From contig NZ_NEDJ01000007.1 of NCBI RefSeq assembly GCF_002114285.1, positions 1 through 64,000 of the forward strand: a stretch of 64,000 nt of DNA, in the 5' to 3' direction. How positions within the stretch are numbered: the first letter of the stretch is position 1; each line of letters starts with the position of its first letter. The translations under genes were made by a program, and so were the position numbers. This document shows, in pieces, positions 8,894-31,588 of this stretch. The notes under the pieces were generated by a model. That model was given only the letters and a program-made list of their open reading frames with translations. It did not search any database and was not told where the DNA came from. Source of the stretch: Halorubrum ezzemoulense DSM 17463 (GTDB taxonomy: Archaea > Halobacteriota > Halobacteria > Halobacteriales > Haloferacaceae).

Positions 8894-10231
8894 ATGTACG
8901 TGGTCGTCATCGGGGCCGGCGAGGTCGGGACGAGCATGGCCGCGAGTCTCGCGTCGGACCACGAGGTCGTCGTCGTCGACGTCGATCCGGACCGGGCGGA
9001 ACAGCTCAAGTACGAGCTCGACGTGCTCACCATCGCCGGGGACGGGACGTCCTCTGAGATCCAGTCGGCCGCCGACGTCGACCGCGCGGACATGGTCATC
9101 GCGTGTACCGACGACGACCAGACGAACCTCGTCGCGTGCGGGGCCGCGAAGACGCTCGGCGACGGGTTCACCATCGCCCGCGTGAAAAGCACCGAGTTCC
9201 TCCGCACCTGGCAGGGCAGCGAGGGCGCGTTCGGCGTCGACTTCATGGTGTGTACGGACCTGTTGACCGCGGAGAACATCGTCCGCGTCATCGGGCTCCC
9301 GGCGGCGATCGACGTCGACCCGTTCGCCGGCGGGCTCGTCCAGATGGCGGAGTTCGAGATCGGCGAGGGGAGCCCCGTCGCTGGACAGACCGTCTCGGAG
9401 GCCGACCGGTTCGAGTCGCTCACCTTCGTCGGGCTGTTCCGCGACGGCGAGATGACGATCCCCCGCGGCGACACGGACATCGTCGTCGGCGACCGCGCGG
9501 TGGTGGTCGGAAGCCCCGAGAGCGTTCAGTCGTTCGCGACCGACATCGCGCCCGAGGCGACGCCGGACGACGCCGACGAGATCGTCGTCGTCGGCGGCAG
9601 CGAGATCGGGTATCAGACCGCCCGGCTGCTGGAGGAGCGGGACTTCACGCCGCGGCTGATCGAGCGCGACGCCGACCGCGCGCGGTGGCTCGCCGAGAAC
9701 CTCCCGGACACCGTCGTGATGGAACACGACCCCACCGACACCGAGTTCCTCTCCCGCGAACACGTCGACGAGGCCGATATCGTCGTCACGGCGCTCGGCT
9801 CCGACGAGAAGAACCTGCTCATCTCCGTGCTCGCCAAGCGCCTCGGCGTCGACCGCGTGATCGCCGTCGTCGACAGCCCCGACTACGTCACCGTCTTCGA
9901 GGAGATCGGCATCGACATCGCGATCAATCCCCGGACGGTCACCGCCGCGGAGATCACCCGGTTCACCTACGAGAGCGTCGCGGAGAACATCGCGGTGTTG
10001 GAAAACGACCAGGCGGAGGTCCTCGAACTCGAACTCACCGAGGGGTGCGGGCTCACGGGGCGACCGATATCGGACATCGTCGCGGAGAGCGACGCGCGGT
10101 TCGTTATCGGCGCGATCACGCGCAACCACCAGCTGGTCACCCCGCGCGGGGACACCGTACTTCAGGCCGGTGACCACGTGATACTCCTCGTGGAGTCCGA
10201 CTCGGTCGGACAGATCGCCTCGATGGCGTGA
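8894..10231 (+). CDS. trkA: TrkA, K+ uptake regulatory subunit with two RCK units
   Basis: TrkA is the cytoplasmic ring that binds NAD(H)/ATP and gates TrkH. The 445-residue protein has two RCK units: RCK_N with MYVVVIGAGEVGTSMA (residues 1-120), RCK_C (about 140-220), a second RCK_N with IVVVGGSEIGYQTARLLE (about 230-350) and a final RCK_C (about 365-445). The first Rossmann motif is GxGxxG; the second is altered to GGSEIG. This is full length for a classical TrkA. The TrkH gene follows after 10 bases in the same transcript. Confidence 0.96.
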   Translation: MYVVVIGAGEVGTSMAASLASDHEVVVVDVDPDRAEQLKYELDVLTIAGDGTSSEIQSAADVDRADMVIACTDDDQTNLVACGAAKTLGDGFTIARVKSTEFLRTWQGSEGAFGVDFMVCTDLLTAENIVRVIGLPAAIDVDPFAGGLVQMAEFEIGEGSPVAGQTVSEADRFESLTFVGLFRDGEMTIPRGDTDIVVGDRAVVVGSPESVQSFATDIAPEATPDDADEIVVVGGSEIGYQTARLLEERDFTPRLIERDADRARWLAENLPDTVVMEHDPTDTEFLSREHVDEADIVVTALGSDEKNLLISVLAKRLGVDRVIAVVDSPDYVTVFEEIGIDIAINPRTVTAAEITRFTYESVAENIAVLENDQAEVLELELTEGCGLTGRPISDIVAESDARFVIGAITRNHQLVTPRGDTVLQAGDHVILLVESDSVGQIASMA

Positions 10232-10241
10232 CCGCCTCCAC

Positions 10242-11744
10242 GTGAGTACCACGATCCGCGTCGGCTGGCGGGCGAGCGTGGGACTCACCGGCGACGTCCT
10301 CGCCGCCCTCCCGGTTCCGCTCGCGTTTCCGCTGCTGATAGCCCTCTACTACGGCGAGTCGCCCGTGCCGTTCCTCGCGGCGATCGCCGTCTCGCTCGCG
10401 ATCGGTGCGGCGTTCCGGTCGGTACGGGACCCCGAGGGAGACCTCGGCCCGCGGGAGGCGTTCCTCGCGGTGGCGCTGATCTGGTTCCTCGTCGCCGCCG
10501 TCGGCGCGATCCCCTTCGTCGTCGCGGGCGTCGGCACGGTCGCGCACCCGGTGAACGCGCTGTTCGAGTCGATGAGCGGACTCACCACGACGGGCGCGAC
10601 GGTGCTGCGCGACTTCTCGCTCCACTCGCGGTCCGTCATGATGTGGCGGCAGGTGATCCAATGGCTCGGCGGCCTCGGAATCCTGATCCTGGCGACCGCG
10701 GTGCTCTCCGAGATCGGCGTCGGCGGGGCACAGCTGATGGAGTCGGAGTCACAGACGCAAGACGTCAACAAGCTCACGCCGAAGATATCGCGGACCGCAC
10801 AGCTCATCTGGGGGATCTACTTCGGGCTCACCGGCCTCGCGATCGCGGTGTACTTCCTGCTCGGGCTCGCCGTCGACCCGCGGATGGACCTGTACAACGC
10901 GGTCGCGCACGCGTTCACGTCCGTCGCGACCGCCGGCTTCTCGCCGGAGCCGCTCTCGGTCGGCGCGTTCCACCCGCTGATCCAGTGGGCGGTCGTCCCG
11001 TTCATGGTGATCGGCTCGACCAGTTTCGTCCTCATCTACTTCGCCATCAACGGCGAGCCGATGCGCCTGCTGCGAAACGAGGAGTTTCACTTCTACCTCG
11101 GCGCGATGGCGACGTTCGCGTCGATCGTCGGGGGCGCGCTGTTCCTCGATCCGAGCGTCACCTTCGGCGCCGAGGCGACGATCCGCCACGCAGTGTTCAA
11201 CGTCGCGTCCATCGTGACGACGACCGGGTACGCCAGCACCGACTACGTGCTGTGGGCGCCCGCTGCGAAGCACATGCTGTTCATGGGGATGTTCGTCGGC
11301 GGGATGGTCGGGTCGACCACCTGCTCGATCAAGTCGCTGCGGTGGCTGGTCGCGCTGAAGTCGTTCCGCCGGGACCTCTTCACCGCGATCCACCCGGAGT
11401 CCGTTCGCCCGGTCCGGATATCGGGGGAGCCGGTCGACGAGGGCGCGATCCGCGACATCTACGCGTACCTCCTCTTGAGCATCGTGATCTTCTTCCTGCT
11501 CGCCGTGGTCATCGTCGTCGACGCCGGGCGGGCGAACCTGCGCGTGACCGAGTTCGAGGCGCTCGGGGCCGCGGCGACCACGTTCCTCAATATCGGCCCG
11601 GCGTTCGGCGACGCGGGCCCGTACGGGACGTTCGCGACGTTCCCGCTGAGTACGCGGGCCGTGATGATCGTCCTGATGTGGATCGGCCGGATCGAGATCA
11701 TCCCGGTCCTCGTGTTGTTCACGAAGGCGTTCTGGACCTCCTGA
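10242..11744 (+). CDS. trkH: TrkH-type K+ transporter, paralogue 1
   Basis: TrkH is the membrane subunit for K+ uptake. The 500-residue protein starts at GTG, 10 bases after trkA. It has about ten hydrophobic helices and four pore loops whose central glycines form the selectivity filter: SGLTTTGATVL (near residue 112), TSVATAGFSP (near 226), IVTTTGYAS (near 326) and FLNIGPAFG (near 448). The cytoplasmic RCK contact region contains RPVRISGEPVDEGAIRDI. It ends with the usual WIGRIEIIPVLVLF. Coupling to the preceding TrkA suggests the two form one complex. Confidence 0.95.
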   Translation: MSTTIRVGWRASVGLTGDVLAALPVPLAFPLLIALYYGESPVPFLAAIAVSLAIGAAFRSVRDPEGDLGPREAFLAVALIWFLVAAVGAIPFVVAGVGTVAHPVNALFESMSGLTTTGATVLRDFSLHSRSVMMWRQVIQWLGGLGILILATAVLSEIGVGGAQLMESESQTQDVNKLTPKISRTAQLIWGIYFGLTGLAIAVYFLLGLAVDPRMDLYNAVAHAFTSVATAGFSPEPLSVGAFHPLIQWAVVPFMVIGSTSFVLIYFAINGEPMRLLRNEEFHFYLGAMATFASIVGGALFLDPSVTFGAEATIRHAVFNVASIVTTTGYASTDYVLWAPAAKHMLFMGMFVGGMVGSTTCSIKSLRWLVALKSFRRDLFTAIHPESVRPVRISGEPVDEGAIRDIYAYLLLSIVIFFLLAVVIVVDAGRANLRVTEFEALGAAATTFLNIGPAFGDAGPYGTFATFPLSTRAVMIVLMWIGRIEIIPVLVLFTKAFWTS

Positions 11745-11822
11745 GTCAAGGCGGCTCTCCCGTCGTCCCCCCTTCGACAGTTTAATACAGCGAACGGGCG
11801 ACCGCCATACCGTTCGAGTATC

Positions 11823-13391
11823 ATGTCTTGGGGCGTCAACTGGAAGGCGAGTGTCGGGCTTCTCGGCGTCGGCATCAAGTACCTCGCCGTCACGCTGCTT
11901 GTTCCTCTGGTGGTGGCGCTCGCGTACGGCAAAGACATCTGGGTCTTTCTGGTCTCCATGGCGATCGTCGCGGGGCTCGGCTTCGCGGTCGAGCGAGTCG
12001 ACCCCGACCCGGATCTCGGTCCCCGCGAGGCGCTGCTGTTCGTCTCGCTCGCGTGGATCGCGGCGGCGGTCATCGGCACTATCCCGTACCTGATAGCCGG
12101 CTACGGGACCGCGTCGACGATCGGTCTCCAGACCGGGTCCGTCGGCGCGTTCACGGAGTCGATCGCCAACGCGCTGTTCGAGTCGATGAGCGGGTTCACC
12201 ACGACCGGTGCGACCGTCCTCGGTGAGATCAGCACCGACCGGCACTCGCACGCCGTGCTGATGTGGCGGCAGCTGACGCAGTGGCTCGGCGGGATGGGGA
12301 TCATCGTCCTGATGATCGCGATCCTCCCCGAGGTCGCCGTCAACGGCGCCCAACTGATGGAGTCGGAGGCGCCCGGGCCGGAGCTACAGAAGCTCACCCC
12401 GAAGATAGCCGAGACCGCGCGGGCGCTCTGGCTCATCTACTTCGGGTTCACCGTGGTGTACATCGCGATCCTGTACGGGCTCCACCTCGCCGGGATGGCG
12501 CCGAAAATGAACCTGTTCAACGCGATCGCGCACGGGTTTACGACCCTCCCGACGGGCGGGTTCTCCCCGAAGGCCGACAGCGTCGCGGCGTTCTCGGCCG
12601 TCGTCCAGTGGGTCGTCATCCCCTTCATGCTCGTCGCCGGCGTCAACTTCGCGCTGTTCTGGCACGTGCTACGCGGCGAGGTCGAGACGATGGTGAAGAA
12701 CGCGGAGTTCCGCGCGTACGCCGGGGCCGTCGCGGTCGTGACCGCCGTGCTCGCGGTGTTGCTGTTCCGCGGCGCGGCGCCGCCGATCGAGCTCGGCGGG
12801 GCGACCCAGGGGGTCGCCGAGAACTCGCTCCGGCAGGCGGCGTTCCAGATCGCGTCGCTGCTGAACTCGACGGGGTACGCCACCGCCGACTTCGCGCAGT
12901 GGAACGCCGACGCACAGATTCTCCTCATGTTCGCGATGTTCATCGGCGGTTCCGCCGGCTCGACCGGCGGCGGCGTCAAGATCGTACGGTGGCTGATCGT
13001 CGGGAAGGCGATCCGGCGCGAGCTGTTCACCTCCGCCCACCCCGACGTCGTCCGGCCGGTCCGCCTCAGCGGGAACGTCGTCGACGAGGACGCGATCCGC
13101 GGCATCATGGCGTTCACCATCCTGTACCTCGTCCTGTTCGGCGTCTCGGCGGTGTTCCTGTCCCTCGACGCGAGCCGGATCGGCGTCCAGCTGACGATGT
13201 TGGAGTCGACGAGCGCGTCGCTCGCGACGATCGGAAACATCGGCCCCGGGTTCGGTCGCCTCGGGCCGTTCGGAAGCTACCTGTTCTTCCCGGACACGTC
13301 GAAGCTGCTGATGATCTTCCTGATGTGGGTCGGTCGGCTGGAGATCGTCCCGGTGCTGGCCGTGTTCATCTCGGCCGTGGACGGTCGGTGA
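11823..13391 (+). CDS. trkH: TrkH-type K+ transporter, paralogue 2
   Basis: This second TrkH has 522 residues and the same architecture as the upstream copy. Its four pore loops are SGFTTTGATVL, TTLPTGGFSP, LNSTGYATAD and TIGNIGPGFG, all with conserved glycines. The GGSAGSTGGGVKIVRWL segment before the last helices is the classic TrkH motif. The gap of 78 bases from paralogue 1 contains TTTAATA about 40 bases before the ATG, so it may have its own promoter and a short leader. Similar ends (RPVRLSGNVVDEDAIRGI) suggest tandem duplication followed by divergence. Confidence 0.95.
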   Translation: MSWGVNWKASVGLLGVGIKYLAVTLLVPLVVALAYGKDIWVFLVSMAIVAGLGFAVERVDPDPDLGPREALLFVSLAWIAAAVIGTIPYLIAGYGTASTIGLQTGSVGAFTESIANALFESMSGFTTTGATVLGEISTDRHSHAVLMWRQLTQWLGGMGIIVLMIAILPEVAVNGAQLMESEAPGPELQKLTPKIAETARALWLIYFGFTVVYIAILYGLHLAGMAPKMNLFNAIAHGFTTLPTGGFSPKADSVAAFSAVVQWVVIPFMLVAGVNFALFWHVLRGEVETMVKNAEFRAYAGAVAVVTAVLAVLLFRGAAPPIELGGATQGVAENSLRQAAFQIASLLNSTGYATADFAQWNADAQILLMFAMFIGGSAGSTGGGVKIVRWLIVGKAIRRELFTSAHPDVVRPVRLSGNVVDEDAIRGIMAFTILYLVLFGVSAVFLSLDASRIGVQLTMLESTSASLATIGNIGPGFGRLGPFGSYLFFPDTSKLLMIFLMWVGRLEIVPVLAVFISAVDGR

Positions 13392-13475
13392 GGACGGTCT
13401 CGGACCCGAACGGGTCCCGATACGTCCCTAGCGAGGTGCCTGCTATCGGGCCAACCGAGGTTCGGAGTGCGTATC

Positions 13476-13482
13476 TTCTTAA
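13476..13482 (+). promoter_or_regulatory. TATA box of the UspA-like gene in the K+ island
   Basis: TTCTTAA sits 24-30 bases before the ATG and suggests the island has an internal promoter here, so it need not be one operon. Confidence 0.5.
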
Positions 13483-13505
13483 CCGACCGGAGTATCGGTG
13501 TTCGT

Positions 13506-13946
13506 ATGACGAGTACAGCCGATCCCGACGGGCAGAATCTCCTCGGCCACGTCCTCCTCCCGGTCGCGAACGAGGAGGACGCGCTGGCGACGGCGCGGGC
13601 GCTCGAACCGTACGACCCGGAGCGCGTGACCGCGCTCCACGTGGTCGAGAAGGGCGAGGGCGTCCCGGACAAGACGCCCGTCGAACAGTCGGAGGAACTC
13701 GCCGAGGAGTCGTACGCCGCGGTCCGGCGCGTGTTCCCGGACGCCGGCGACCACACCGCGTACGCTCGCGACATCGCCGGTGCGATCTTCGACGCCGTCG
13801 ACGAGGTCGGCGCGAGCGCGATCGGCTATCGCTCTCGCGGCGGCAACCGCCTGTTCCGGTTCCTCTCGGGCGATGTCTCGCTCGAACTCGTGACTGAGTC
13901 GCACGTGCCCGTGGTCGCGCTTCCGCGCGGGGGAGCGGCCGACTGA
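13506..13946 (+). CDS. UspA-like protein inside the K+ uptake cluster
   Basis: The 146-residue protein has the fold of a universal stress domain: HVLLPVANEEDALATARALE at the start, a middle helix, and a C-terminal GYRSRGGNRLFRFLSGDVSL. That last stretch corresponds to the nucleotide-binding loop but departs from the canonical GTHGRxG form. Bacterial and archaeal transporters often have UspA partners that sense adenine nucleotides. A TATA-like TTCTTAA lies 24-30 bases before this ATG, which decides the start over an upstream alternative. It lies between two TrkH genes and the small TrkA. Confidence 0.88.
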   Translation: MTSTADPDGQNLLGHVLLPVANEEDALATARALEPYDPERVTALHVVEKGEGVPDKTPVEQSEELAEESYAAVRRVFPDAGDHTAYARDIAGAIFDAVDEVGASAIGYRSRGGNRLFRFLSGDVSLELVTESHVPVVALPRGGAAD

Positions 13947-14053
13947 GTCGGCCGCCTCCCGGTCCGCCGCGACCGCTCGTGCCGCGGCGTCCGATCGCTC
14001 CGTTGTGTCGGGGAACGGTAGGTTTTCGTCGATCCTTTTTGAACACGTGTCGT

Positions 14054-14737
14054 ATGTACGTGATCGTCGTGGGCGCGGGCGACATCGGGACCCCGCTCGT
14101 CGACCTCGCGACCGACAGCGGCAACGAGGTCGTCGTCATCGAGCGTGACGAGGAACGGGCGGAGCGGGCGTCGCGGCAGTACGACTGCCTCGTGCTTAAC
14201 GACGACGCGACCTCGAAGGAGACCCTCCAAGACGCCGGGGCCGAACGGGCCGACGCGCTCATATCGACGACGGATCAGGACGCGACGAACATCATGGTCT
14301 GTCTGCTGGCCCAGGAGCTGTCGGTCCCGAACATCGTCTCGGTCGTCCACAACCCCGAGCACATGAGCGTGTTCGAGCAGATCGGCGTCAACACGATGCA
14401 GAACCCCCAGAGCCTGATCGCGGAGTACCTCTACCGGGCGGTGAGCCGGCCGTCGGTCGTCGACTTCATGCACATCGGCGAGGAGGCGGAGGTGTTCGAG
14501 ATCACCGTGGGAGGAGACGCCCCGATCGCCGGGAAGACGCTCCGCGAGGCGGACGAGGCGGACCTCATCGGCGGCCAGACGCTGATCGTCGCCGTCGAGC
14601 GCGACAGATCGGAGGCCCCGATAACGCCGCGCGGGGAGACCCGCATTCACGAAGGCGACATGCTCACCGTGTACTCCGGCGTCGGCGCGACCGCCGAGGT
14701 GACCGACGTGTTCGGGCACGCGGAGGATCGCGACTGA
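14054..14737 (+). CDS. TrkA-type K+ channel regulator with a single RCK unit
   Basis: The 227-residue protein has one RCK_N domain starting MYVIVVGAGDIGTPLVDLA, with the GxGxxG nucleotide motif and a conserved acidic residue at the end of strand 2 (VVVIERDEER). An RCK_C domain follows (about residues 140-220, with PIAGKTLREAD and GETRIHEGDML). Half-length TrkA proteins assemble as octameric or double rings. I chose the ATG at the start of the domain; a longer reading frame adds 25 basic residues. The next TrkH gene begins one base after the stop, so this RCK protein probably regulates paralogue 3. Confidence 0.94.
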   Translation: MYVIVVGAGDIGTPLVDLATDSGNEVVVIERDEERAERASRQYDCLVLNDDATSKETLQDAGAERADALISTTDQDATNIMVCLLAQELSVPNIVSVVHNPEHMSVFEQIGVNTMQNPQSLIAEYLYRAVSRPSVVDFMHIGEEAEVFEITVGGDAPIAGKTLREADEADLIGGQTLIVAVERDRSEAPITPRGETRIHEGDMLTVYSGVGATAEVTDVFGHAEDRD

Positions 14738-14738
14738 G

Positions 14739-16433
14739 ATGCCCGACCGGAACGGCAACCGATTCCCAACCGATCTCGGCGTCATCGCCCGGGACATCGG
14801 CTCGCTCCTCCTGATGGAGGCCGGGCTGATGACCGTCACGGTGGTCGTCGCGCTCGGGTTCGGAGAGTTCCACGCGGCGCTCGGCTTCCTCCTCGCGGGC
14901 GGGGTGACGGCGCTCGTCGGCGGCGCCGCGAACAGGCGGTTCGCCGACGCCCCGGAGCCGAAAATGAAACACGGGATGGTGATCGCGGCCGGCGGCTGGC
15001 TCATGGTCGCCCTCTTCGGCGGCCTGCCGCTGTTCCTCACGGCGTGGACGACGCCAGCGGCCGCGATGGACGCGTTCGTTCCGGCGGCCGCGGACACCGC
15101 CTCGTGGGAGCCGATCGGGGTCGGCGGGACGACGACCCTCTCCAGTCTCGCGTACTTCCGCGACCCGCTCCACGCCTTCTTCGAGAGCATGAGCGGGTGG
15201 ACCGGGAGCGGGCTGACGATGGCCGTCCACGAGCCGTCGCTGCCGCGGGCGGTGCAGTGGTGGCGCTCGTTCATCCAGTGGGTCGGCGGGGTGGGCGTCA
15301 TCGTCCTCACGGTCTCGATTCTCTCGCGTCCCGGCAGCGGGAGCTACGCCCTCTACCGCAGCGAGGCGCGCGAGCGGAAGATCCACCCGAGCGTCGTCTC
15401 GACGGTCCGGACGGTCTGGAAGCTCGTGGTGGCGTACACGCTGTTGGCCTTCGCGGCGCTGTTCGTCGCGATCCGGGCGAGCGAGAGCGCGTACGCCGAG
15501 TCGCTCTCGCTCGGCGAGACGGCGTGGCAGGCGCTCAACCACGCGATGACCGGGCTCACGACCGGCGGGTTCTCCGTCACGGACAACTCGATCGCGACGT
15601 ACGGCTCCCCGCTAGTTGAGGCGACGCTGCTGCCGATCATGGTGCTCGGCGCGATCGCGTTCCCGGTCCACTACGTCGTGCTCAGCGACCGGAACGTGCG
15701 CGAACTGGCCGCAGACCTCCAGACGAGGTGGCTGTTCACGCTGCTGGGCGCGGGCGTCGTCGTGCTCTCGGTACAGAACGTCGCGTCCGCCGAGATAGCG
15801 TCGAGCGCGTTCTCGACGGGATCGTTCTTCCCGCTCTCCGCGTCTCCCCTCGACTGGGCGCAGCTCGACGCCGTTCGGGACTCGACGTTCCAGTGGATCA
15901 GCGCGCTCACGTGTACCGGCTTCCAGTCCGCACCGATCGGCCGCTGGGTCGCCGGCGCGAAGGTGTTGGTCGTCGGCGCGATGACGCTCGGCGGCGCGGC
16001 GGGGTCGACCGTCGGCGGTATCAAGATCGTCCGCGGGTACACGGTCGCCCGGGGCATCGTCTGGCAGTTCTCACGCGTGTTCCTCCCGAAGAACGCGGTC
16101 GTCACCGCGCGGCTGGGCGACCGAACGCTGGACCGCGAGGCGATGGAGCGCGAGTTCGGCGAGGCGGCCATCGTCACCCTGCTGTGGCTCCTCGCGCTCG
16201 TCGCCGGCAGCCTCGTCCTCGTCAACGTCGCCGGGCCGGAGTTCGGCTACGCCGACGCGCTGTTCGAGGTCGCGAGCGCACAGGGGAACGTCGGCCTCTC
16301 GACGGGGATCACGGGGCCCTCGATGTCGCCGGCCGCCGAGGGGATGTTCGTCCTGAACATGTGGATCGGCCGGTTGGAGATTATCCCGGTGCTGGTGTTC
16401 GTCCGGGCCGGGATCTGGGGGCTGAACCCCTGA
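14739..16433 (+). CDS. trkH: TrkH-type cation transporter, divergent paralogue 3
   Basis: The longest TrkH here (564 residues) has an N-terminal extension that adds membrane segments. Its first pore loop reads SGWTGSGLTMA instead of the usual SGxTTTGATV. Loops 2-4 (TGLTTGGFSV, ALTCTGFQSA, QGNVGLSTG) keep the glycines. GGAAGSTVGGIKIVRG and WIGRLEIIPVLVF confirm the family. The altered first loop could change ion preference (K+ versus Na+), but this cannot be decided from sequence. The gene is paired with the single-RCK TrkA immediately upstream. Confidence 0.93.
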   Translation: MPDRNGNRFPTDLGVIARDIGSLLLMEAGLMTVTVVVALGFGEFHAALGFLLAGGVTALVGGAANRRFADAPEPKMKHGMVIAAGGWLMVALFGGLPLFLTAWTTPAAAMDAFVPAAADTASWEPIGVGGTTTLSSLAYFRDPLHAFFESMSGWTGSGLTMAVHEPSLPRAVQWWRSFIQWVGGVGVIVLTVSILSRPGSGSYALYRSEARERKIHPSVVSTVRTVWKLVVAYTLLAFAALFVAIRASESAYAESLSLGETAWQALNHAMTGLTTGGFSVTDNSIATYGSPLVEATLLPIMVLGAIAFPVHYVVLSDRNVRELAADLQTRWLFTLLGAGVVVLSVQNVASAEIASSAFSTGSFFPLSASPLDWAQLDAVRDSTFQWISALTCTGFQSAPIGRWVAGAKVLVVGAMTLGGAAGSTVGGIKIVRGYTVARGIVWQFSRVFLPKNAVVTARLGDRTLDREAMEREFGEAAIVTLLWLLALVAGSLVLVNVAGPEFGYADALFEVASAQGNVGLSTGITGPSMSPAAEGMFVLNMWIGRLEIIPVLVFVRAGIWGLNP

Positions 16434-22265: not shown

Positions 22266-23444
22266 ATGCTGGACGGGGTCAACGTCGCGCTCGGCGTCTC
22301 GGGGAGCATCGCGGCGGTGAAGGTCGTCGAACTCGCGCACGAACTGCGCCGCCACGGCGCGAGCGTCCGCGCCGTCATGTCCCCGGCGGCGACGAACATC
22401 GTCCACCCGTGGGCGGTCGACTTCGCGACCGACGAGCCGGTCGTCACGGAGATCACCGGCAGCGTCGAACACGTCGAGTTATGCGGCCGGGAGGGGTGGG
22501 CCGACGTGCTCCTGCTCGCGCCCGCGACCGCCAACACCGCGGGGAAGATCGCCGCGGCCGTCGACGACACGCCCGTGACGACCTGTGCGACGACCGCGCT
22601 CGGCGCGGACGTACCGGTCGTGATGGCCCCGGCGATGCACGAGCCGATGTACGACCACCCGGGCGTCCTCGACGCCCTCGACCGCTTGGAGTCGTGGGGG
22701 ATCCGCTTCGCGGACCCGCGTATCGAGGAGGGGAAAGCGAAGATCGCCGCCGAGGAAGACATCGTCACGGAGGTCGCCCGCGCGACGACGCCCCAGACCC
22801 TCTCGGACGCGCATATCGTCGTCACCGCGGGCGCGACGAAGGAGCGGATCGACCCGATCCGCATCCTGACGAACCGCGCGTCGGGGAAGACGGGCCGCGC
22901 CCTGGCGCGGGCGTGCTACGTCCGCGGTGCGCGCGTGACGCTCGTTCAGGACGGCCCCGAGGTCCCCTACGCCGACGTGGTCGCCGTCGAGACCGCCGAC
23001 GAGATGATGGACGCCTGTCGGCGGACCGCCGCGACCGCGGACGCGCTGGTGTCCGCGGCCGCCATCTCGGATTTCACCGCCGACGCCGTCGACGAGAAGA
23101 TCCGGTCCGGATCGCCGCTGTCGGTCGATCTCAGGCCGACGCCGAAGCTCATCGACTCGGTGCGCGAGGCGTATCCCGACCTCCCGATCGTCGGCTTCAA
23201 GGCCGAGACGTCGGGCGACGACGCGGCGATGGTGGCGGAAGCGGAGCGCATCCGCGACCGCGTGGGGCTCTCGTTCGTGGTCGCCAACGACGCGAGCGTG
23301 ATGGGCGAGGAGGCGACGCGGGCGCTGCTCGTCGGCCGAGGGGACACCCGCGAGTTCGTCGGTGATAAGGACGGGCTCGGCGCCCGCGTCGCCGACGAAC
23401 TCGCCGGCGTCCTCGGGCGATCCGAGAGCGAAACCGTGGGATAA
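22266..23444 (+). CDS. coaBC: CoaBC: phosphopantothenoylcysteine decarboxylase / phosphopantothenate--cysteine ligase
   Basis: This two-domain enzyme makes phosphopantothenoyl-cysteine and decarboxylates it to phosphopantetheine in CoA synthesis. The 392-residue protein has the N-terminal FMN-binding CoaC domain (GVSGSIAAVKVVELAHELRR, LLLAPATANTAGKIA and the PAMH motif in MAPAMHEPMYDHPG). From about residue 185 the CoaB ligase domain follows (HIVVTAGATKERIDPIRILT, NRASGKTGRALARA, VSAAAISDFTAD, PTPKLIDSV, GFKAET). Both halves look intact. It has its own promoter. The archaeal PPS gene of the same pathway lies upstream. Confidence 0.96.
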   Translation: MLDGVNVALGVSGSIAAVKVVELAHELRRHGASVRAVMSPAATNIVHPWAVDFATDEPVVTEITGSVEHVELCGREGWADVLLLAPATANTAGKIAAAVDDTPVTTCATTALGADVPVVMAPAMHEPMYDHPGVLDALDRLESWGIRFADPRIEEGKAKIAAEEDIVTEVARATTPQTLSDAHIVVTAGATKERIDPIRILTNRASGKTGRALARACYVRGARVTLVQDGPEVPYADVVAVETADEMMDACRRTAATADALVSAAAISDFTADAVDEKIRSGSPLSVDLRPTPKLIDSVREAYPDLPIVGFKAETSGDDAAMVAEAERIRDRVGLSFVVANDASVMGEEATRALLVGRGDTREFVGDKDGLGARVADELAGVLGRSESETVG

Positions 23445-23528: not shown

Positions 23529-24662
23529 ATGTCAGACACAGACGCCCGCCGAATACTCGTTCCCGTCGGCGACTCGGACAGCCTCCGAGACACTGTCTCG
23601 TACGTCGTCGACTTGGCGACCGAGACGGCCCCGGCGCCGGTCGAGATTCACTTGGTCCTCGCGGCTCGGACGCAGGCCGTCAGCCCCGACGCCCCGACGG
23701 AGCTCGGCACAGCCCGCGAACAGTTGGAACGCGTCGCCCTCTGGGTCGAGGAGGAGACGGCCGAGGGGACGGTCGTCGCTCGGGAGGACCGAGAGGCGGA
23801 CGCGGCGGGCGAGTCCGAGGCGGACGCCGACGGCGAAGCGCCCGCCGATGCGGCCGATGCCCCCGGGTGGCTCACCGTCGTCACCGACACCGTCGGAACC
23901 GACCGGTACCTGTTCAGCCCGGGCGACTACGCCGACGCGCTCCTCGAGTACGCGGCCGCGGCGGGTATCGACCGGATCGTCGTCGACCCGGAGTACAAGC
24001 CCGGCGGCACCGCGTCGATGCTCCAGCCGATGTCGGTGGAGCTGGCCCGCGGCGACGTGCCGGTCGAGACGGCGCCGGTCGACCGACCGACCGAGGGGGC
24101 GGTGCTCGCCCGCGCGGCGTCGCTGTCGAAGTACCTCTCCGTCTTCGTCGTCTCGTACCTGTTTTACATGTCGCTGAGCGCCTGGAAGCCGCTCGACTTC
24201 TTCACCGGCTTCGTGACGGCGTCGATCGTCTCCCTCGTCCTCGCGCCGGTCGTGGCGAACCGCTCCGCGCCGCTCGGGGTGACGCTCCGCCGGCTGGCCC
24301 GACTGCTGGTGTACGCTCCGTACCTGGTCAAGGAGATCGCGGTCGCGAACCTTCAGGTCGCGTACGTCGTCCTCCACCCCGACATGCCGATCGACCCGGA
24401 GGTCGTTCAGCTCCGCGCCGCGGTCTGGGGCGACGGCGCGGTGACGACGCTCGCGAACAGCATCACCCTCACGCCCGGAACCTTGACCGTCAACGTCTCC
24501 GAGCGCTCGTTCGACATCCACTCGCTGACCGCCGACTCGCGCGCGGACCTCTTCGACGGCGGGTTAGAGCGCGCGGTTCGGTTCGTCTTCTACGGCCGCG
24601 CGGCGGCCCGGATCCCGACGCCGCGCGAACGCGGCGACGCCGGGGAGGGACGAGATGGTTGA
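23529..24662 (+). CDS. mrpE: MrpE antiporter subunit with N-terminal UspA-like domain
   Basis: The 377-residue protein has two parts. Residues 1-190 look like a universal stress domain (ARRILVPVGDSDSLRDTVSY, LVLAARTQAV, an acidic insert around 85-115, and GIDRIVVDPEYKPGGTASML). Residues 195-370 form the membrane subunit E of the Mrp/Mnh Na+/H+ antiporter, with helices near YLSVFVVSYLFYMSLSAWKP, ASIVSLVLAPVVA, and the LTPGTLTVNVSE motif. MrpE alone is usually about 160 residues, so this is a fusion. The nucleotide-binding loop of UspA is degenerate. It is the first gene of the nine-gene mrp operon and overlaps mrpF by eight bases. Confidence 0.93.
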   Translation: MSDTDARRILVPVGDSDSLRDTVSYVVDLATETAPAPVEIHLVLAARTQAVSPDAPTELGTAREQLERVALWVEEETAEGTVVAREDREADAAGESEADADGEAPADAADAPGWLTVVTDTVGTDRYLFSPGDYADALLEYAAAAGIDRIVVDPEYKPGGTASMLQPMSVELARGDVPVETAPVDRPTEGAVLARAASLSKYLSVFVVSYLFYMSLSAWKPLDFFTGFVTASIVSLVLAPVVANRSAPLGVTLRRLARLLVYAPYLVKEIAVANLQVAYVVLHPDMPIDPEVVQLRAAVWGDGAVTTLANSITLTPGTLTVNVSERSFDIHSLTADSRADLFDGGLERAVRFVFYGRAAARIPTPRERGDAGEGRDG

Positions 24663-24930
24663 GTTCGAGACCGCGCTGCTGGCCATCGCGGCGGCCTTCG
24701 TCCTCTTCGCCGTCGTCGCGCTGTACCGGGTGTACGACGGGCCGACGACCCACGACCGTGTCATCGCGGTGAACGTCGCCGGGACGAACACCGTCATCGC
24801 CATCACGCTCGTGGCCGCGGCGTTCCAGCAGTCGACGTTCCTCGACGTGGCGCTCGTGTACGCCCTGCTGAACTTCCTGCTGTCGATAGCGTTCTCGAAG
24901 TTCAACGTCGAGCGCGGGGGTGTGCTGTGA
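24655..24930 (+). CDS. mrpF: Mrp antiporter subunit F
   Basis: MrpF is a small membrane subunit of the multi-subunit Na+(K+)/H+ antiporter. The 91-residue protein has three helices and the family motif LYRVYDGPTTHDRVIAVN between the first two, with NFLLSIAFSKF near the end. Its start overlaps mrpE by eight bases and its stop overlaps mrpG (GTGA), indicating translational coupling in the operon. Confidence 0.95.
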   Translation: MVEFETALLAIAAAFVLFAVVALYRVYDGPTTHDRVIAVNVAGTNTVIAITLVAAAFQQSTFLDVALVYALLNFLLSIAFSKFNVERGGVL

Positions 24931-25244
24931 CGCCGACCGAGTGGGGCATCGTCGCCCTCGCGCTCGCCGGGGCCTTCTTCGGCGGCGTCGCCGCAGTCGG
25001 CCTCGTCCGACTGCCGGACGTCTACACCCGTTCGCATGCCGCCTCGAAGAGCGACACGTTGGGGGCGATCCTCGCGATCGCCGCCGCCGCGCTCGCGCTC
25101 CAGTCGGGGCTCTCGACGGCGAAGTCCGTCTTCCTCCTGTTGTTCATGTTCATCACGAACCCGACGGCAGCACACGCCGTCGCCCGCGCGGCGCAGGACC
25201 AGGGAATCGAACCGTGGACCGCCGACGAGGGTGACGAGCCATGA
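24927..25244 (+). CDS. mrpG: Mrp antiporter subunit G
   Basis: The 105-residue membrane protein starts at a GTG that overlaps the mrpF stop. Family features are an N-terminal helix (WGIVALALAGAFFGGVAAVG), the LVRLPDVYTRSHAASKSDTL motif and the FMFITNPTAAHAVARAA segment. It forms part of the membrane core with MrpE and MrpF. The end overlaps the next ATG by four bases. Confidence 0.95.
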   Translation: MTPTEWGIVALALAGAFFGGVAAVGLVRLPDVYTRSHAASKSDTLGAILAIAAAALALQSGLSTAKSVFLLLFMFITNPTAAHAVARAAQDQGIEPWTADEGDEP

Positions 25245-25780
25245 CGCTCTCGCTGATCGAAGCCGTGCTGCTGGTGTTCGTCCTCGGCTGCGCAGTCGGC
25301 GCGGCCCTGCTGAAGGACACGCTGGCGGCGGTGATGGCGTTCGCGGCGTACAGCCTCGGCGTCTCGGTGCTCTGGCTCGTGCTTCAGGCGCCCGACGTCG
25401 GGCTCACGGAGGCGGCCGTCGGCGCCGGCATCATGACCGTGCTGTTCCTGCTGGCGCTGTCGAACACCGCCTCGCCGGATGTCGACCGCCTGTTCGAGTC
25501 GATCGGGTGGCAGACGGCGGCGCTCGTCGCCGGGTTCGTCCTGCTCGTCGGCGCGACGGTCCCCGCGCTCCCGGCCATCGGCGACCCGAACTCGGCGGTT
25601 GTCGGCGGCGAGGTGACCCAGTACTACCTCGAGAACGCGTACGACCAGACCGAGGTCAAAAACGCCGTGACGGCCGTCCTCGCCGCGTACCGCGGCTTCG
25701 ACACGCTCGGCGAGGGCGTGGTCGTCTTCAGCGCCGTCGTCGTCACGCTGTCAGTACTGCGCCGCGAGGTGGTGGCATGA
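25241..25780 (+). CDS. Mrp subunit with DUF4040 domain (MrpA C-terminal-like)
   Basis: This 179-residue protein corresponds to the C-terminal DUF4040 and MbhE-like portion of bacterial MrpA, here a separate gene. The DUF4040 core is VLGCAVGAALLKDTLAAVMA with QAPDVGLTEAAVGAGIMTVL. A second part has YYLENAYDQTEVKNAVTAVL and FDTLGEGVVVFSAVVV, as in the MbhE/MrpA end. About five membrane helices are visible. Start and stop overlap the neighbours by four bases each. Confidence 0.92.
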   Translation: MTLSLIEAVLLVFVLGCAVGAALLKDTLAAVMAFAAYSLGVSVLWLVLQAPDVGLTEAAVGAGIMTVLFLLALSNTASPDVDRLFESIGWQTAALVAGFVLLVGATVPALPAIGDPNSAVVGGEVTQYYLENAYDQTEVKNAVTAVLAAYRGFDTLGEGVVVFSAVVVTLSVLRREVVA

Positions 25781-26271
25781 GCACCGGCGACGCGGACCCG
25801 GCGGCGGGCGACGACGAGGGGCCCGGGCTGTACGTCGAGTCGACGATCATCATGACCACCGTCCGGTTGGTCGCCCCGTTCATCCTCACGTTCGCGCTGT
25901 TCATCATGTTCCACGGGGCCGACTCGCCCGGCGGCGGGTTCCAGGGCGGCGTCATCGCCGGGTCCGTGGTGATGATGCTCGCCTTCGCGTACGGCATCGA
26001 CTCGACCCGTCAGTGGCTCGACGTCCGCGTCGTCTCCGCGCTGGCCTCCGGGGGCGTGTTCGCGTTCGTCGGGATCGGTCTCGGCGCGATGGCGCTCGGC
26101 GGACAGTTCCTCCAGTACGCGGAGTTCGAGGCGCTGTTCGGCCACGCGATCAAGTACGCAATCGAACTCGTCGAACTCGGCATCGGCGCCATCGTCGCCG
26201 CTGTCGCGATCGGGCTATTCTTCCTGCTCGCGGCCGGCTTCGACGGCGTCGCCGAGGGGGACTCCTCATGA
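25777..26271 (+). CDS. mrpB: Mrp antiporter subunit B
   Basis: The 164-residue membrane protein has an acidic N-terminus, then four helices. The MnhB signature is FIMFHGADSPGGGFQGGVIA, followed by MMLAFAYGID and the last helices (IGAIVAAVAIGLFFLLAAGF). It should pair with the DUF4040 protein and MrpC. Both ends overlap adjacent genes by four bases, within a tightly packed operon. Confidence 0.95.
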   Translation: MSTGDADPAAGDDEGPGLYVESTIIMTTVRLVAPFILTFALFIMFHGADSPGGGFQGGVIAGSVVMMLAFAYGIDSTRQWLDVRVVSALASGGVFAFVGIGLGAMALGGQFLQYAEFEALFGHAIKYAIELVELGIGAIVAAVAIGLFFLLAAGFDGVAEGDSS

Positions 26272-26627
26272 CACTCGACTTACTCACGACGCACTACAAC
26301 TACTACGCGGTCGTCCTGCTGCTCGGGATCGGGCTGTACACCGTGATCGAATCCAGGAACCTCGTGAAGAAGGTGATCGGGATGAACGTGTTCCAGACCG
26401 GGATCTTCCTGTTCTTCATCACGCTCGCGTACCGCGCAGGCGGCAATCCCCCGGTCGTCACCGAGGGCGCCGGCCCGTACGTGAGCCCGCTGCCGCACGT
26501 GCTCATCCTGACCGCCATCGTCGTCGGCGTGAGCCTGACCGCGGTGGCGCTCGCACTGGTCGTGCGCGTCTACTCCGAGTACGGCACGCTCGACGAGCAC
26601 ACCCTGGAGGAACTCTACCATGATTGA
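26268..26627 (+). CDS. mrpC: Mrp antiporter subunit C (NuoK-like)
   Basis: This 119-residue protein has three membrane helices and resembles NuoK of complex I. Visible motifs are LLLGIGLYTVIESRNLVKKV, IGMNVFQTGIFLFFI and LPHVLILTAIVVGVSLTAV. It is of normal length for MnhC/MrpC. The gene overlaps mrpD1 by eight bases, and its start overlaps mrpB by four. Confidence 0.95.
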   Translation: MTLDLLTTHYNYYAVVLLLGIGLYTVIESRNLVKKVIGMNVFQTGIFLFFITLAYRAGGNPPVVTEGAGPYVSPLPHVLILTAIVVGVSLTAVALALVVRVYSEYGTLDEHTLEELYHD

Positions 26628-28098
26628 CCACCTGATCGTCCTGTTGGTCGTCCTGCCGATCCTCGGCGCCGCGGTCCCGCCGCTGGCCAGTCTCCGCTAC
26701 GACCGCGTCGGCTGGGCGGTCGCGACGGCGACGGCCCTCGGGCACGCCGCGCTCGCCGGCGCGCTCGCGTGGACCGTCTGGACCGACGGGGTCGTTCGGT
26801 ACGCGGTCGGCGGGTTCGTCGCCCCCTACGGGATCGAACTCGTCGCCGACGGACTGACGATCCTACTCGTCGCCCTCATCAGCGCGGTCTCGCTCGGCGT
26901 ACTCGCGTACGCACGTCACGCGGGCCCCCACGAGAACTCGTTCTACTCGCAGTTCCTGCTCCTCGTCGCCGGCCTGTCCGGGATGACCGTGACCGGCGAC
27001 GTGTTCAACCTGTACGTCTTCCTCGAGATCACCGGGCTCGCGGCGTACGGGCTGGTCGCGAGCGGCCCCGGAGCCCGGTCCGCCGTCGCGGCCCTGAAAT
27101 ACCTCATCATCGGAACCATCGGCGCGTCGCTGTACCTGCTCGGCGTCGGCTACGCGCTCGCCGCCACTGGCACGCTGAACATGGCGGACCTCAGCGACAA
27201 ACTCGCCGCCGCGGGATACGACTCGACGCTCGTCTTAACCGCGTTCGGCCTGATCGTCGCCGGACTCTTAGTGAAGGTCGCGCTGTTCCCGATCCACACC
27301 TGGCAACCCGACGCGTACGCGGACTCGCCGGACAGCGTGAGCGCGTTCATCTCGGCGCTCGTCTCCACGGTCTCCGCGTACGCCCTGGCGCGCGTGTTGT
27401 TCTCCGTGTTCACGGTCGACTTCCTCGAGGCGGTTCCGATCGCGCGCCAGGCGCTGGTCGCCGTCGCCTGCGTCAGCATCGTCGCCGGGAGCGCCCTCGC
27501 CGTCGCGCAGTCCGACGTTCAGCGCATGCTGGCGTACTCGTCGGTGTCGCAGTTCGGCCTCGTGATCGCCGGATTCGCGATCGCGACGCCGCTGGCGGTC
27601 GTCGGCGCGACCGTCCACCTCGTCGGGCACGCGGTGATGAAGGGCGGCCTCTTCGCCGCGACCGGGATCATCGAGCGGAAGACCGGCGCGACGACGGTCG
27701 GCGGGTACGCCGGGATCGCCGGTCGCGCGCCGGCCGCCACCGGCGCCTTCACGCTGCTGGCGCTCGCGATGGTCGGCGTTCCGCCGGCCGTCGGGTTCAT
27801 GGGGAAGTGGTACATCGTCCTCGGCGCGGTGAACGCCGGGTCCTGGCCGGTGGTCGCCGTCCTCTTGGCGAGCACGCTGCTGACGCTGGCGTACTTCGCG
27901 CGGCTCGCCGAGCGACTCTACTTTGCCAAGGCGACCATCGCGCCGGAGGCGGTCGCCGCCGACGGGGGTGAGCGCGTCTCGACGGCCATGATCGTGACCG
28001 TCGTCGTCGCCGCCGTCCTCGCCGTGGGACTCGCGGCCGCCGTCCCGGTGATAGACCAGTTGATCGACATGACCGTGTTCGAGCTGATGCTCCAATGA
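26620..28098 (+). CDS. mrpD: Mrp antiporter subunit D, paralogue 1 (proton-channel subunit)
   Basis: The 492-residue protein belongs to the NuoL/M/N-MrpA/D family of ion-translocating subunits with about 14 helices. Landmarks are the helix with NLYVFLEITGLAAYGLVASG, a long central stretch with HTWQPDAYADSPDSVSAFIS, LAYSSVSQFGLVIAG and GVPPAVGFMGKWY. Conserved Lys in VKVALFPIH and the Glu in LEITGL are the expected proton-path residues. It is the first of three such genes in a row. Confidence 0.94.
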   Translation: MIDHLIVLLVVLPILGAAVPPLASLRYDRVGWAVATATALGHAALAGALAWTVWTDGVVRYAVGGFVAPYGIELVADGLTILLVALISAVSLGVLAYARHAGPHENSFYSQFLLLVAGLSGMTVTGDVFNLYVFLEITGLAAYGLVASGPGARSAVAALKYLIIGTIGASLYLLGVGYALAATGTLNMADLSDKLAAAGYDSTLVLTAFGLIVAGLLVKVALFPIHTWQPDAYADSPDSVSAFISALVSTVSAYALARVLFSVFTVDFLEAVPIARQALVAVACVSIVAGSALAVAQSDVQRMLAYSSVSQFGLVIAGFAIATPLAVVGATVHLVGHAVMKGGLFAATGIIERKTGATTVGGYAGIAGRAPAATGAFTLLALAMVGVPPAVGFMGKWYIVLGAVNAGSWPVVAVLLASTLLTLAYFARLAERLYFAKATIAPEAVAADGGERVSTAMIVTVVVAAVLAVGLAAAVPVIDQLIDMTVFELMLQ

Positions 28099-29774
28099 CC
28101 GACGTCACCTCCCTTCGACCGTTGTTCGCCGTGCTCGTGTCGGCCGTGGCCATCCCCGTCATCCTCTCGCTCCGATCGCGGCCGAACGTCCGTGAGGGCG
28201 TCACCCTCACCGTCGCCGCGACGAAGTTCGCCCTCGTCGCCAGCATGGTCCCCGGCGTCCTCTCGGGGACCACCTACGTCACGCGGATCGGCGAGCTGGG
28301 CGACGGTATCTCGCTCGTGCTCCGCGCGGACCCCCTCGGGATCCTGTTCGCGCTGCTCGCGAGCCTCCTGTGGATCGTCACGAGCTTCTACTCCATCGGG
28401 TACATGCGCGGACTGAGCGAACACGCGCAGACCCGCTACTTCGCCTCGTTCGCCGCGAGCCTCGCCTCGGCCGTCGGGGTCGCGTTCGGGGCGAACCTCG
28501 TCACGCTGTTCGTCTTCTATGAGCTGCTGACGGTGTCGACGTACCCGCTGGTCACGCACGACGAGACCGACGAGGCCCGCGCGGCCGGTCGGAAGTACCT
28601 CACGTACACCTTCGGCGGCGGCGTGGCCGTGCTCGGCGGGACCGCGCTCGTCTACGTGCTGACGGGCACCACGGCGTTCACGCCGGGCGGGATCGAGGCG
28701 CTCGCCGGCGCGGACCCGACGCTGGCGCGCGTGGCGTTCGGCCTCCTCGCCGGCGGGTTCGGCGTCAAGGCGGCGCTGATGCCGGTCCACTCGTGGCTCC
28801 CCGACGCGATGGTCGCGCCGACGCCGGTCTCGGGGCTGCTCCACGCGGTCGCGGTCGTCAAGAGCGGCATCTTCGGCATCGCCCGCGTCGTGCTTGACGT
28901 GTTCGGCACGGAGACGATGGCGGAGCTGGGCGTGGCGGCGCCGCTCGCGGTCGTCGCCGCGATCACGCTCCTGACCGCGAGCGTCATCGCACTGCGGCAG
29001 GACAACCTCAAGCGGCGGCTGGCGTACTCGACGATCAGCCAGCTGTCGTACATCGTCCTCGGGCTCGCGCTGCTGGAGGGCGAGGCGCTCGTCGGCGGGC
29101 TGCTCCACATCCCGGCGCACGCGTTCATGAAGCTCACCCTCTTCTTCTGTGCGGGCGCAATCCACGTCGAGACCCACACGGACGACATCAGCGACATGGC
29201 CGGCATCGGCGACCGGATGCCGCTGACGATGGCGGCGTTCGCCGTCGCAGCCGCGGGGATGGCCGGCATCCCGCTGATAGCCGGGTTCGTCAGCAAGTGG
29301 TACATCGTCATCGGCGCCCTGGAGGGCGGCGGCCTCGTGTTTGCCGGCGCGCTGCTGGTGTCCGGCGTCCTCAACATCGCGTACTTCTGGCCGATCGTGT
29401 ACCAGGCGTACTTCGAGTCACCGGACGGGCACGACAAGAAGCCGCTCGTGACCGCGGCGCTCGGCGGCCGCGGGAGCCCCCGCGCCGACGGCGGCCACGA
29501 GGCCGCGACGCACGCGAGCGCTGACGAGACCGCAGCGCACGGCGATGACCACGAGGCGGCGACGCACGAGGGTCACGACGACCACCACGGCGGCCCGCCG
29601 GCGGGCGGGTGGGACGTTCGTGGCTGGCGCGGCGCCGAGAGCACGTGGTTCATGCTCGGGCCGATCCTGACGGCCGCGAGCCTCTCGGTCCTGCTCGGCG
29701 TCGTCCCGCGGACGGCGGTGTTCCTCCGGATAATCGAGACCGTCGTCGGTTCGCTCCCGGGGGTGATGGGCTGA
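28095..29774 (+). CDS. mrpD: Mrp antiporter subunit D, paralogue 2, with a His-rich insert
   Basis: The second proton-channel subunit (559 residues) shows VFYELLTVSTYPLVTH, FGVKAALMPVHSWLPDAM with the key Lys and His, LAYSTISQLSYIVLGLAL and IPLIAGFVSKWY. Between the last two helices (about residues 455-505) is a hydrophilic insert rich in His, Asp, Glu and Ala (for example HEAATHEGHDDHHGG), unlike paralogue 1. It may face the cytoplasm and could bind metal or respond to pH; that is inference. Start overlaps paralogue 1 by four bases. Confidence 0.93.
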   Translation: MTDVTSLRPLFAVLVSAVAIPVILSLRSRPNVREGVTLTVAATKFALVASMVPGVLSGTTYVTRIGELGDGISLVLRADPLGILFALLASLLWIVTSFYSIGYMRGLSEHAQTRYFASFAASLASAVGVAFGANLVTLFVFYELLTVSTYPLVTHDETDEARAAGRKYLTYTFGGGVAVLGGTALVYVLTGTTAFTPGGIEALAGADPTLARVAFGLLAGGFGVKAALMPVHSWLPDAMVAPTPVSGLLHAVAVVKSGIFGIARVVLDVFGTETMAELGVAAPLAVVAAITLLTASVIALRQDNLKRRLAYSTISQLSYIVLGLALLEGEALVGGLLHIPAHAFMKLTLFFCAGAIHVETHTDDISDMAGIGDRMPLTMAAFAVAAAGMAGIPLIAGFVSKWYIVIGALEGGGLVFAGALLVSGVLNIAYFWPIVYQAYFESPDGHDKKPLVTAALGGRGSPRADGGHEAATHASADETAAHGDDHEAATHEGHDDHHGGPPAGGWDVRGWRGAESTWFMLGPILTAASLSVLLGVVPRTAVFLRIIETVVGSLPGVMG

Positions 29775-31588
29775 TGACCGCCGCGCTCACTGCCCTCCCG
29801 CCCGGTCCGGTCCTCCTCGTCATCGCCGCGCTGATCGCCCTCACGCCCCGCCGCGTCGGGCACGCGCTGGGCGTCGCCGCGTCCGGGGTCGCGGTGGCTT
29901 GGGCGTGGACCGTCCCGGCGGGCGCGCACCTCCAGGCCACGTTCCTCGGTTTCGACGCCATCCTGCTCAACGTCGACGAGTTCTCGCGGCTCATGGGGCT
30001 GATATTCGGGATCATCGGCGTCGTCGCCGTCCTCTACTCGTACGCGAGCGAGGCCGAGAGCATTCAGACCGCGTTCGCGTTCTCCTACGTCGCGACGAGC
30101 TTCGGCGCGGTGTTCGCCGGCGACTGGCTCACGCTGCTGTTCTTTTGGGAGCTGATGGCCGTCACCAGCACGCTGCTCGTCTGGCACTACCGCGGCGAGG
30201 CGGTCCGGGCCGGCTTCCGGTACGCGCTGCTCCACGGCCTCGGCGGGACGCTGCTGATGGCGGCGATACTCGGTAACTACGTCGCGAAGGGGACCTTCCT
30301 GTTCGCCACGGTGCCGGGCGGCCCCGAGACGGCGGGGATCGTGGCAGGGCTCCCGGCCGCGCTCGCCGCCGTCGGCATCGGCGTCAACGTCGGGTTCATC
30401 GGCCTCCACGCGTGGCTCCCCGACACGTATCCGCGCCCGCACATCGCCGCCAGCGTCTTCCTCTGCGTGTTCACGACCAAGACGGGCGTCTACGGGATGT
30501 ACCGGGCGTTCCCCGACGGGCACGTCGCGATCGCCTACATGGGCGGCGGGATGGCCGTGTTCGGGGCGACGTTCGCGCTGTTCCAGAACGACATGCGGCG
30601 GCTGCTCTCGTACCACATCCAGTCGCAGGTCGGCTACATGATCGCCGGCGTCGGCATCGGGTCGGCCCTGTCGCAGGCCGGCGCGTTCGCCCACGTGTTC
30701 AACCACATCCTCTACAAGGGGCTGCTCTTCATGACGGCCGGCGTCGTCGTCTACCGGACCGGCGAGGAGAGCCTGAAGAAGCTGGGCGGGCTGGCCCGCG
30801 ACATGCCGGTCACCGCCGGCGCGTTCACGATCGCCGCGCTGTCGATCGCGGGGTTCCCCGGGTTCAACGGCTTCGTCAGCAAGGGGATCATCATCTCCGG
30901 GAGCCACTACACCTTCCCGAAGGGCCCGCTCCCGATCGGCGACTTCCATACGCTCGAATGGCTGCTCCTGCTCGGCGGGATCGGGACGTTCATGTCGTTC
31001 ATCAAGTTCGGCTACTACGCGTTCTTCCACGGGAGCTACGACGGCGACGTGCGGGACGCCAACCGGGGGCAGAGCGTCGCGATGGGCGCGGTGGCGGTGC
31101 TCTGCGTCGCTTACGGCGTCCTCGTTCCCACCTCGCCGCTCGCGGCGGTCGTCCCGGCCGACGTGGGACTGTTCGGGATCCTCCCGTTCGACGTGACGAG
31201 CGAGGCCGTCGTCGAGAAGGTGTACAAGACGTACACCGTCGACCACCTGATCGAAGGCGTCGCCCTCGCCGTCCTCGGCCTGATCGGCTTCGCGCTCACC
31301 AAGAGGCCGCTCTCGAAGCTGGGGCGGGTCCCGGACGTCGACTCGCTGTACAACCCCGCCGTGTTCTACGGCACCCGCGGGCTCGTGGTCGGCGTCACGG
31401 AGCTTTACGCCGCCGTCGACCGCGCCGTCGTCGGGCTCACGACGGCGACCGTCCGGACGGTCACCGACCCGCAGGCGGCCGTCCGACGCGTCGGCAGCGA
31501 CGTCGAGATCAAGTCCGGGATCGGCCGCAGCGTGCTGATACTGACGCTGGCGGTCGGGATCGCACTGTTCGGAGTCCTGTTCCTCTGA
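29774..31588 (+). CDS. mrpD: Mrp antiporter large subunit, paralogue 3 (MrpA/D-like)
   Basis: The 604-residue protein is the last gene of the operon. Motifs of the antiporter family include WELMAVTSTLLVWHYRGE, VGFIGLHAWLPDTYPRPH, LLSYHIQSQVGYMIAGVG, FNHILYKGLLFMTAG and FPGFNGFVSKGII. It is longer at the C-terminus, with two extra membrane segments and a soluble link, and may replace the N-terminal part of bacterial MrpA. I chose the ATG that overlaps the previous stop by one base (TGATG); a longer reading frame upstream is a shadow of paralogue 2. Confidence 0.93.
   Translation: MTAALTALPPGPVLLVIAALIALTPRRVGHALGVAASGVAVAWAWTVPAGAHLQATFLGFDAILLNVDEFSRLMGLIFGIIGVVAVLYSYASEAESIQTAFAFSYVATSFGAVFAGDWLTLLFFWELMAVTSTLLVWHYRGEAVRAGFRYALLHGLGGTLLMAAILGNYVAKGTFLFATVPGGPETAGIVAGLPAALAAVGIGVNVGFIGLHAWLPDTYPRPHIAASVFLCVFTTKTGVYGMYRAFPDGHVAIAYMGGGMAVFGATFALFQNDMRRLLSYHIQSQVGYMIAGVGIGSALSQAGAFAHVFNHILYKGLLFMTAGVVVYRTGEESLKKLGGLARDMPVTAGAFTIAALSIAGFPGFNGFVSKGIIISGSHYTFPKGPLPIGDFHTLEWLLLLGGIGTFMSFIKFGYYAFFHGSYDGDVRDANRGQSVAMGAVAVLCVAYGVLVPTSPLAAVVPADVGLFGILPFDVTSEAVVEKVYKTYTVDHLIEGVALAVLGLIGFALTKRPLSKLGRVPDVDSLYNPAVFYGTRGLVVGVTELYAAVDRAVVGLTTATVRTVTDPQAAVRRVGSDVEIKSGIGRSVLILTLAVGIALFGVLFL

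Follow-up and report, generated by a model that had tools for sequence, protein, structure and literature searches.

An open reading frame at 23529..24662 in a 64,000-nucleotide stretch of Halorubrum ezzemoulense DSM 17463 DNA (the window, meaning the whole stretch analyzed; the fused gene and the mrp genes that follow it lie on its + strand) raises the question of what has been joined to the antiporter subunit MrpE, and what the added part might do for the pump. The frame is single and uninterrupted, with an ATG start and no internal stop, and encodes 377 aa plus a stop codon. In-frame TTG (23472) and GTG (23511) codons are present upstream, and the ATG at 23529 was retained as the start because several orthologues align from about this position. 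The original prediction had assigned to this frame a stress protein-like (Usp) domain of ~190 residues before a normal MrpE, acting as a possible adenine-nucleotide or stress sensor on the antiporter. The coordinates and domain size proved correct, but the proposed mechanism as a whole was only partly supported.

A Usp-fold domain ahead of a complete MrpE

The C-terminal half of the protein was matched by Pfam MNHE (PF01899) over residues 207-351 (E 7e-31; 107.4 bits against a cutoff of 27). Its nearest solved relatives are the MrpE-type subunits of MBS, MBH and two Mrp complexes; the top PDB sequence match was MBS (6u8y, 2.4e-20), and Foldseek matched the MrpE part to 7qru_E, 6u8y_A and 6z16_E. 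The AF2 model shows the features expected of MrpE: two predicted N-terminal membrane helices (residues 199-216 and 221-242; 24123..24254), a long and probably amphipathic helix (residues 249-282; 24273..24374) and a ferredoxin-like C-terminal domain with the conserved stretch ANSITLTPGT (24399..24611), which is cytosolic by homology; the helix assignments agree with published MrpE topology (PMC7419157). The full-length model was of modest confidence (pTM 0.51) and matched both MrpE and Usp structures. The MrpE chains of 6z16, 7qru, 6u8y and 6cfw share the MrpE fold and conserved region with the window protein but, at 158-168 aa, have no N-terminal Usp domain.

The N-terminal domain (residues 1-186; 23529..24086) is less readily recognized. 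Searched alone against Pfam Usp (PF00582), the window sequence scored 17.6 bits (E 0.0057), below the cutoff of 24, and homology to Usp therefore rests on profile evidence. Usp was the commonest Pfam match, returned for 17 of 25 orthologous N-domains (best 7.6e-4). When a profile of the N-domain was searched against 393 genomes of the phylum, the second tier of matches after the family itself comprised mostly Usp-sized proteins (1e-8 to 1e-3), and stand-alone Usp proteins of other haloarchaea were retrieved; a second-tier match in the genome under study (C82:16090-16416) is a Pfam Usp at 6e-31. Alignment of the N-domain with 14 Usp domains of the same genome by hhalign gave a probability of 95.6%. 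The AF2 model of the isolated domain (mean pLDDT 84, pTM 0.82) has the five-stranded α/β/α fold with the topology β1-α1-β2-α2-β3-α3-β4-α4-β5, which is the Usp order, and the first 35 Foldseek matches in the PDB were all Usp proteins (best E 7e-6), with TeaD (3hgm), MJ0577 (1mjh) and dAMP-bound AF0826 (3qtb) among the best.

Domain search and structure prediction, the checks that the original prediction had put forward, thus confirm that ~185 residues with a Usp fold, homologous to Usp, precede a complete MrpE. The possibility of an unrelated extension or chance match was rejected on the combined orthologue Pfam, profile, hhalign, AF2 and Foldseek results. Two competing matches, a weak Pfam CysS_C match in one sequence and a PDB profile match to the repeat protein 7rdr, were dismissed as chance, given that neither the other orthologues nor the fold supports them. 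One orthologue (L012) had appeared truncated in a first alignment, with no start codon near the domain, but its frame does contain the N-domain.

The N-domain has the fold and remote sequence homology in common with members of the Usp family (PF00582) such as AF0826 and MJ0577; it differs from them in the absence of the ATP motif, an additional YLFxxxDY stretch and a single-sequence score under the Pfam cutoff. An acidic insert between α2 and β3 (residues 77-113; 23757..23867) is long in the alignment only in the window species and one close relative, and was modeled mostly at pLDDT 55-67.

A curated family already describes the complete Usp plus MrpE architecture. The model NCBIfam NF009295 (PRK12652, monovalent cation/H+ antiporter subunit E) matched residues 5-371, N-domain included, with a score of 436 bits where the cutoff is 290, and the window protein shows no substantive difference from this model, whose name refers to the MrpE half only and leaves the Usp domain unmentioned.

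Distribution of the fusion and the Mrp type that carries it

The 393 genomes of the phylum comprised 91 from the order and 302 others, and a strong N-domain match was defined by E < 1e-20. Such matches were found in 76 of the 91 order genomes and in none of the 302 others. MNHE was present in all 91 order genomes; 15 of them have MrpE without the N-domain only, so haloarchaea can do without the Usp-MrpE system. Nearly all MNHE frames among the matches listed for genomes outside the order had the size of an ordinary MrpE. A scan of 84,980 genomes with one peptide pattern returned 101 relatives, of which the 80 listed are all haloarchaea, with genera that include Halorubrum, Haloarcula, Natrinema, Natronomonas and Haloquadratum.

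Among 125 N-domain frames, 124 also contain MrpE and the lone exception runs off a contig end; all 108 distinct N-domain proteins are joined to MrpE. In a phylogenetic tree, 31 fused MrpE sequences formed one clade (SH-aLRT 100) alongside the MrpE of some other archaea, and haloarchaeal MrpE without a Usp domain was placed elsewhere. Several independent fusions were rejected for the sampled genes on account of this single clade. The fusion is thus old, conserved and of single origin, and is not peculiar to the window genome.

Within the genus, the window protein clusters with relatives resembling Halorubrum sodomense (L002 and L003, at 67-77% identity) and apart from most congeners, with which it shares about 40-44% identity, a difference that points to two old fused-gene lineages within the genus.

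The genes around the fusion distinguish two haloarchaeal Mrp types. In all 15 fused loci inspected (L051-L065), the order was [Usp]E-F-G-MbhD/E-B-C followed by three MrpD-like large subunits. By contrast, unfused haloarchaeal MrpE was encoded in canonical A-B-C-D-E-F-G operons with two large-subunit genes at 20 of 20 loci (L031-L050), none of which carried the fusion. Given this segregation, the Usp domain marks a type of complex. The window operon departs from the canonical group 1 mrpABCDEFG order with full-length MrpA: the fused gene is followed by mrpF (24655..24930; NCBIfam NF009244), mrpG (24927..25244; NF009314/TIGR01300), a gene for an MbhD/MbhE-like subunit equivalent to the C-terminal part of MrpA (25241..25780; Pfam MbhD and MbhE, NF009159), mrpB (25777..26271; NF009160), mrpC (26268..26627; NF005621) and genes for three MrpD-like large subunits, at 26620..28098 (Proton_antipo_M), 28095..29774 (NF005561, 965 bits) and 29774..31588 (NF009310, 708 bits).

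With three MrpD-like subunits and a separate MbhD/E-like subunit, the genes at 24655-31588 resemble MBH/MBS membrane arms; no redox gene was found among the genes examined in operons of this type. Directly upstream of the fused gene lies a coaBC-like gene (22266-23444), a homologue of which was present near the fused gene and on the same strand at 5 of the 15 fused loci.

Conserved residues at the former nucleotide site

Canonical ATP-binding Usp proteins carry the motif G-2x-G-9x-G(S/T) after β4 (PMC3673472). This motif was found in none of the 108 distinct fused proteins. As a control, the strict motif was present in 5 of the 14 Usp domains from the same genome and its final glycine in all 14. 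The fused family has lost this final glycine, and the motif glycines are replaced by conserved residues other than glycine. In the window protein, the loop after β4 that stands in for the glycine motif reads DPEYKPGG (23985..24008), and the hhalign alignment with Usp runs up to this loop and then ends. Asp-153 and Pro-154, in place of the first motif glycine, were invariant in an alignment of 25 sequences, Glu-155 was present in 22 and Tyr-156 in 23, and Pro-158 and Pro-167 also fall at the place of the motif; the strict pattern DP[EGN][YF]xP occurred in 98 of the 108 fused proteins. A second conserved stretch, YLFxxxDY (YLFSPGDY in the window protein; 23907..23930), lies at the β3/α3 junction, where the usual turn would be, and was found in 100 of 108 with Leu or Ile allowed. 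The replacement of the ATP motif by a conserved DPEYxP in the matching loop makes a usual-type adenine-nucleotide site in the N-domain unlikely.

Mean pairwise identity was 47-58% in the N-domain core, 51% in the membrane helices and 69% in the C-domain. With a value of 58%, the second half of the N-domain is no less conserved than the membrane helices (51%), so the domain is under selection. In a diverged subgroup of five fused proteins (L051-L055), both the YLFxxxDY and DPEY motifs are degraded, and the three large subunits follow one another in a different order; the degraded motifs make it less likely that the motif face serves a single function throughout the family.

Possible roles of the domain at the pump

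The gene is tentatively read as the MrpE of a predicted three-large-subunit Mrp antiporter, to which a repurposed Usp has been attached as a dimerization or regulatory module at the dimer interface. The domain more likely serves the pump structurally or as a regulator than as an ATP sensor, and it may act on ion export. In the Mrp structure from Anoxybacillus, the dimer interface is built largely from the first two helices of MrpE, whose C-domain lies in the cytosol close to where cations are proposed to enter (PMC7419157). Given an even number of helices (two) and a cytosolic C-domain, the N terminus and the Usp domain would also be cytosolic, and by analogy with that structure the domain would sit where the two Mrp units of the dimer meet, beside the partner. 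Dimerization of the three-D type is assumed here from bacterial Mrp; we know of no structure of a three-D Mrp.

Usp proteins dimerize mostly via β5 and α4 (PMC3673472). In the fused protein, the Usp domain would stand in the cytosol immediately ahead of the two short helices that form the interface, and Usp-type dimerization would engage α4 and β5, which connect directly with the linker and TM1. On the simplest mechanical reading, a Usp pair would bridge the two pump halves, and the domain could stabilize or gate the pump dimer close to the cation entry at MrpE/MrpG. The remodeled DPEYxP/YLFxxxDY face would be its working surface, possibly set by another protein or by binding of a ligand other than ATP. 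The most specific version of this proposal, in which an Mrp with three NuoL/M/N-like subunits carries a non-ATP Usp pair that dimerizes across the interface and gates the entry of cations, cued by a ligand or partner new for Usp, is a long shot.

A sensor of some other ligand, for instance c-di-AMP or an ion, would likewise use the YLFxxxDY and DPEYxP residues, and the strong conservation of aromatic and acidic residues at the former nucleotide site would fit such a role. The c-di-AMP-binding USP domain of KdpD (7ji4) was among the structural matches at 1.2e-3, but this similarity is no better than that of many other Usp proteins, and no ligand motif could be demonstrated; this reading is considered unlikely. 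The c-di-AMP site motif of KdpD did not match YLFxxxDY when compared by eye, a comparison that carries no evidential weight.

The adenine-nucleotide sensor of the original prediction, which would bind ATP or AMP like a canonical Usp and adjust antiport accordingly, has a parallel in TeaD, an ATP-binding Usp that modulates the salt-related TRAP transporter TeaABC of Halomonas elongata (PMC9006882). TeaD and the nucleotide-bound AF0826 are, as described above, among the top structural matches, and some Usp domains bind ATP despite a degenerate motif, as does the C-terminal domain of TTHA0350; structures with a completely degenerate motif, however, mostly contain no ligand (PMC3673472). TeaD is also a separate protein, whereas the window Usp domain is covalently attached to MrpE. 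With the motif absent throughout the fused family and its final glycine lost, an energy or stress sensor of this kind is rather unlikely, and the sequences lend the nucleotide part of the original claim no support.

A module for assembly or stability only, helping MrpE to enter the three-D complex without conveying any signal, would agree with the strict confinement of the domain to one complex type, with the loss of the ATP motif and with the finding that MrpE is the last subunit to join the Mrp assembly in Bacillus (PMC5703873). Such a role leaves the recruitment of a Usp fold and the strong conservation of the former ligand face unexplained, and is judged quite unlikely. That MrpE is also or mainly translated from an internal start, which would make the Usp part optional, is very improbable: a GTG (residue 192; 24102..24104) preceded by a GAGG stretch does lie immediately ahead of TM1, yet only 21 of 108 orthologues have a start codon in the linker, and its position varies among them. 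A conserved internal start for free MrpE, which the original prediction had named as a possible refutation, was rejected on this basis.

Covalent links between Usp domains and transporters have precedents in the same archaeal class. Haloarchaeal Usp domains fused or adjacent to APC, FNT and SSS transporters, with APC and FNT among the fusions, were described in 2011 (PMC3102087), and Usp domains with cation/H+ exchangers, including Na+/H+ exchangers, have also been reported (PMC12159084). The cases are described as single-protein transporters and, as far as the available text of these two papers goes, MrpE or MnhE is not named among them, whereas in the window the Usp domain is attached to one accessory subunit of an antiporter built from many subunits. 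Among open-licence papers, none linking MrpE or MnhE with Usp was found. The N-terminal half of a conserved, already modeled haloarchaeal protein is here identified as a Usp-derived, probably non-ATP domain tied to the three-large-subunit Mrp. As it stands, the analysis mainly assigns a fold to the unexplained half of that family. Should the domain regulate the pump, a complex I-related antiporter would have a covalent control input, for which haloarchaea, with one Mrp type that has the Usp domain and one that lacks it in the same class, provide a natural comparison. The N-domain would also give a defined example of a Usp fold without ATP binding, which bears on the roles of transporter-attached Usp domains.

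The genome contains 36 Usp domain matches. The original prediction had noted UspA-like proteins in the K+ island, and a stand-alone Usp (13506-13946) does lie between TrkH and TrkA genes within a Trk K+ transport cluster (8894-16433) that encodes TrkA, two TrkH, this Usp, a second TrkA and a third TrkH. Linkage between Usp domains and transporters is common, as the original prediction had supposed, but is a property of the class, already reported (PMC3102087, PMC12159084), rather than a principle of this organism.
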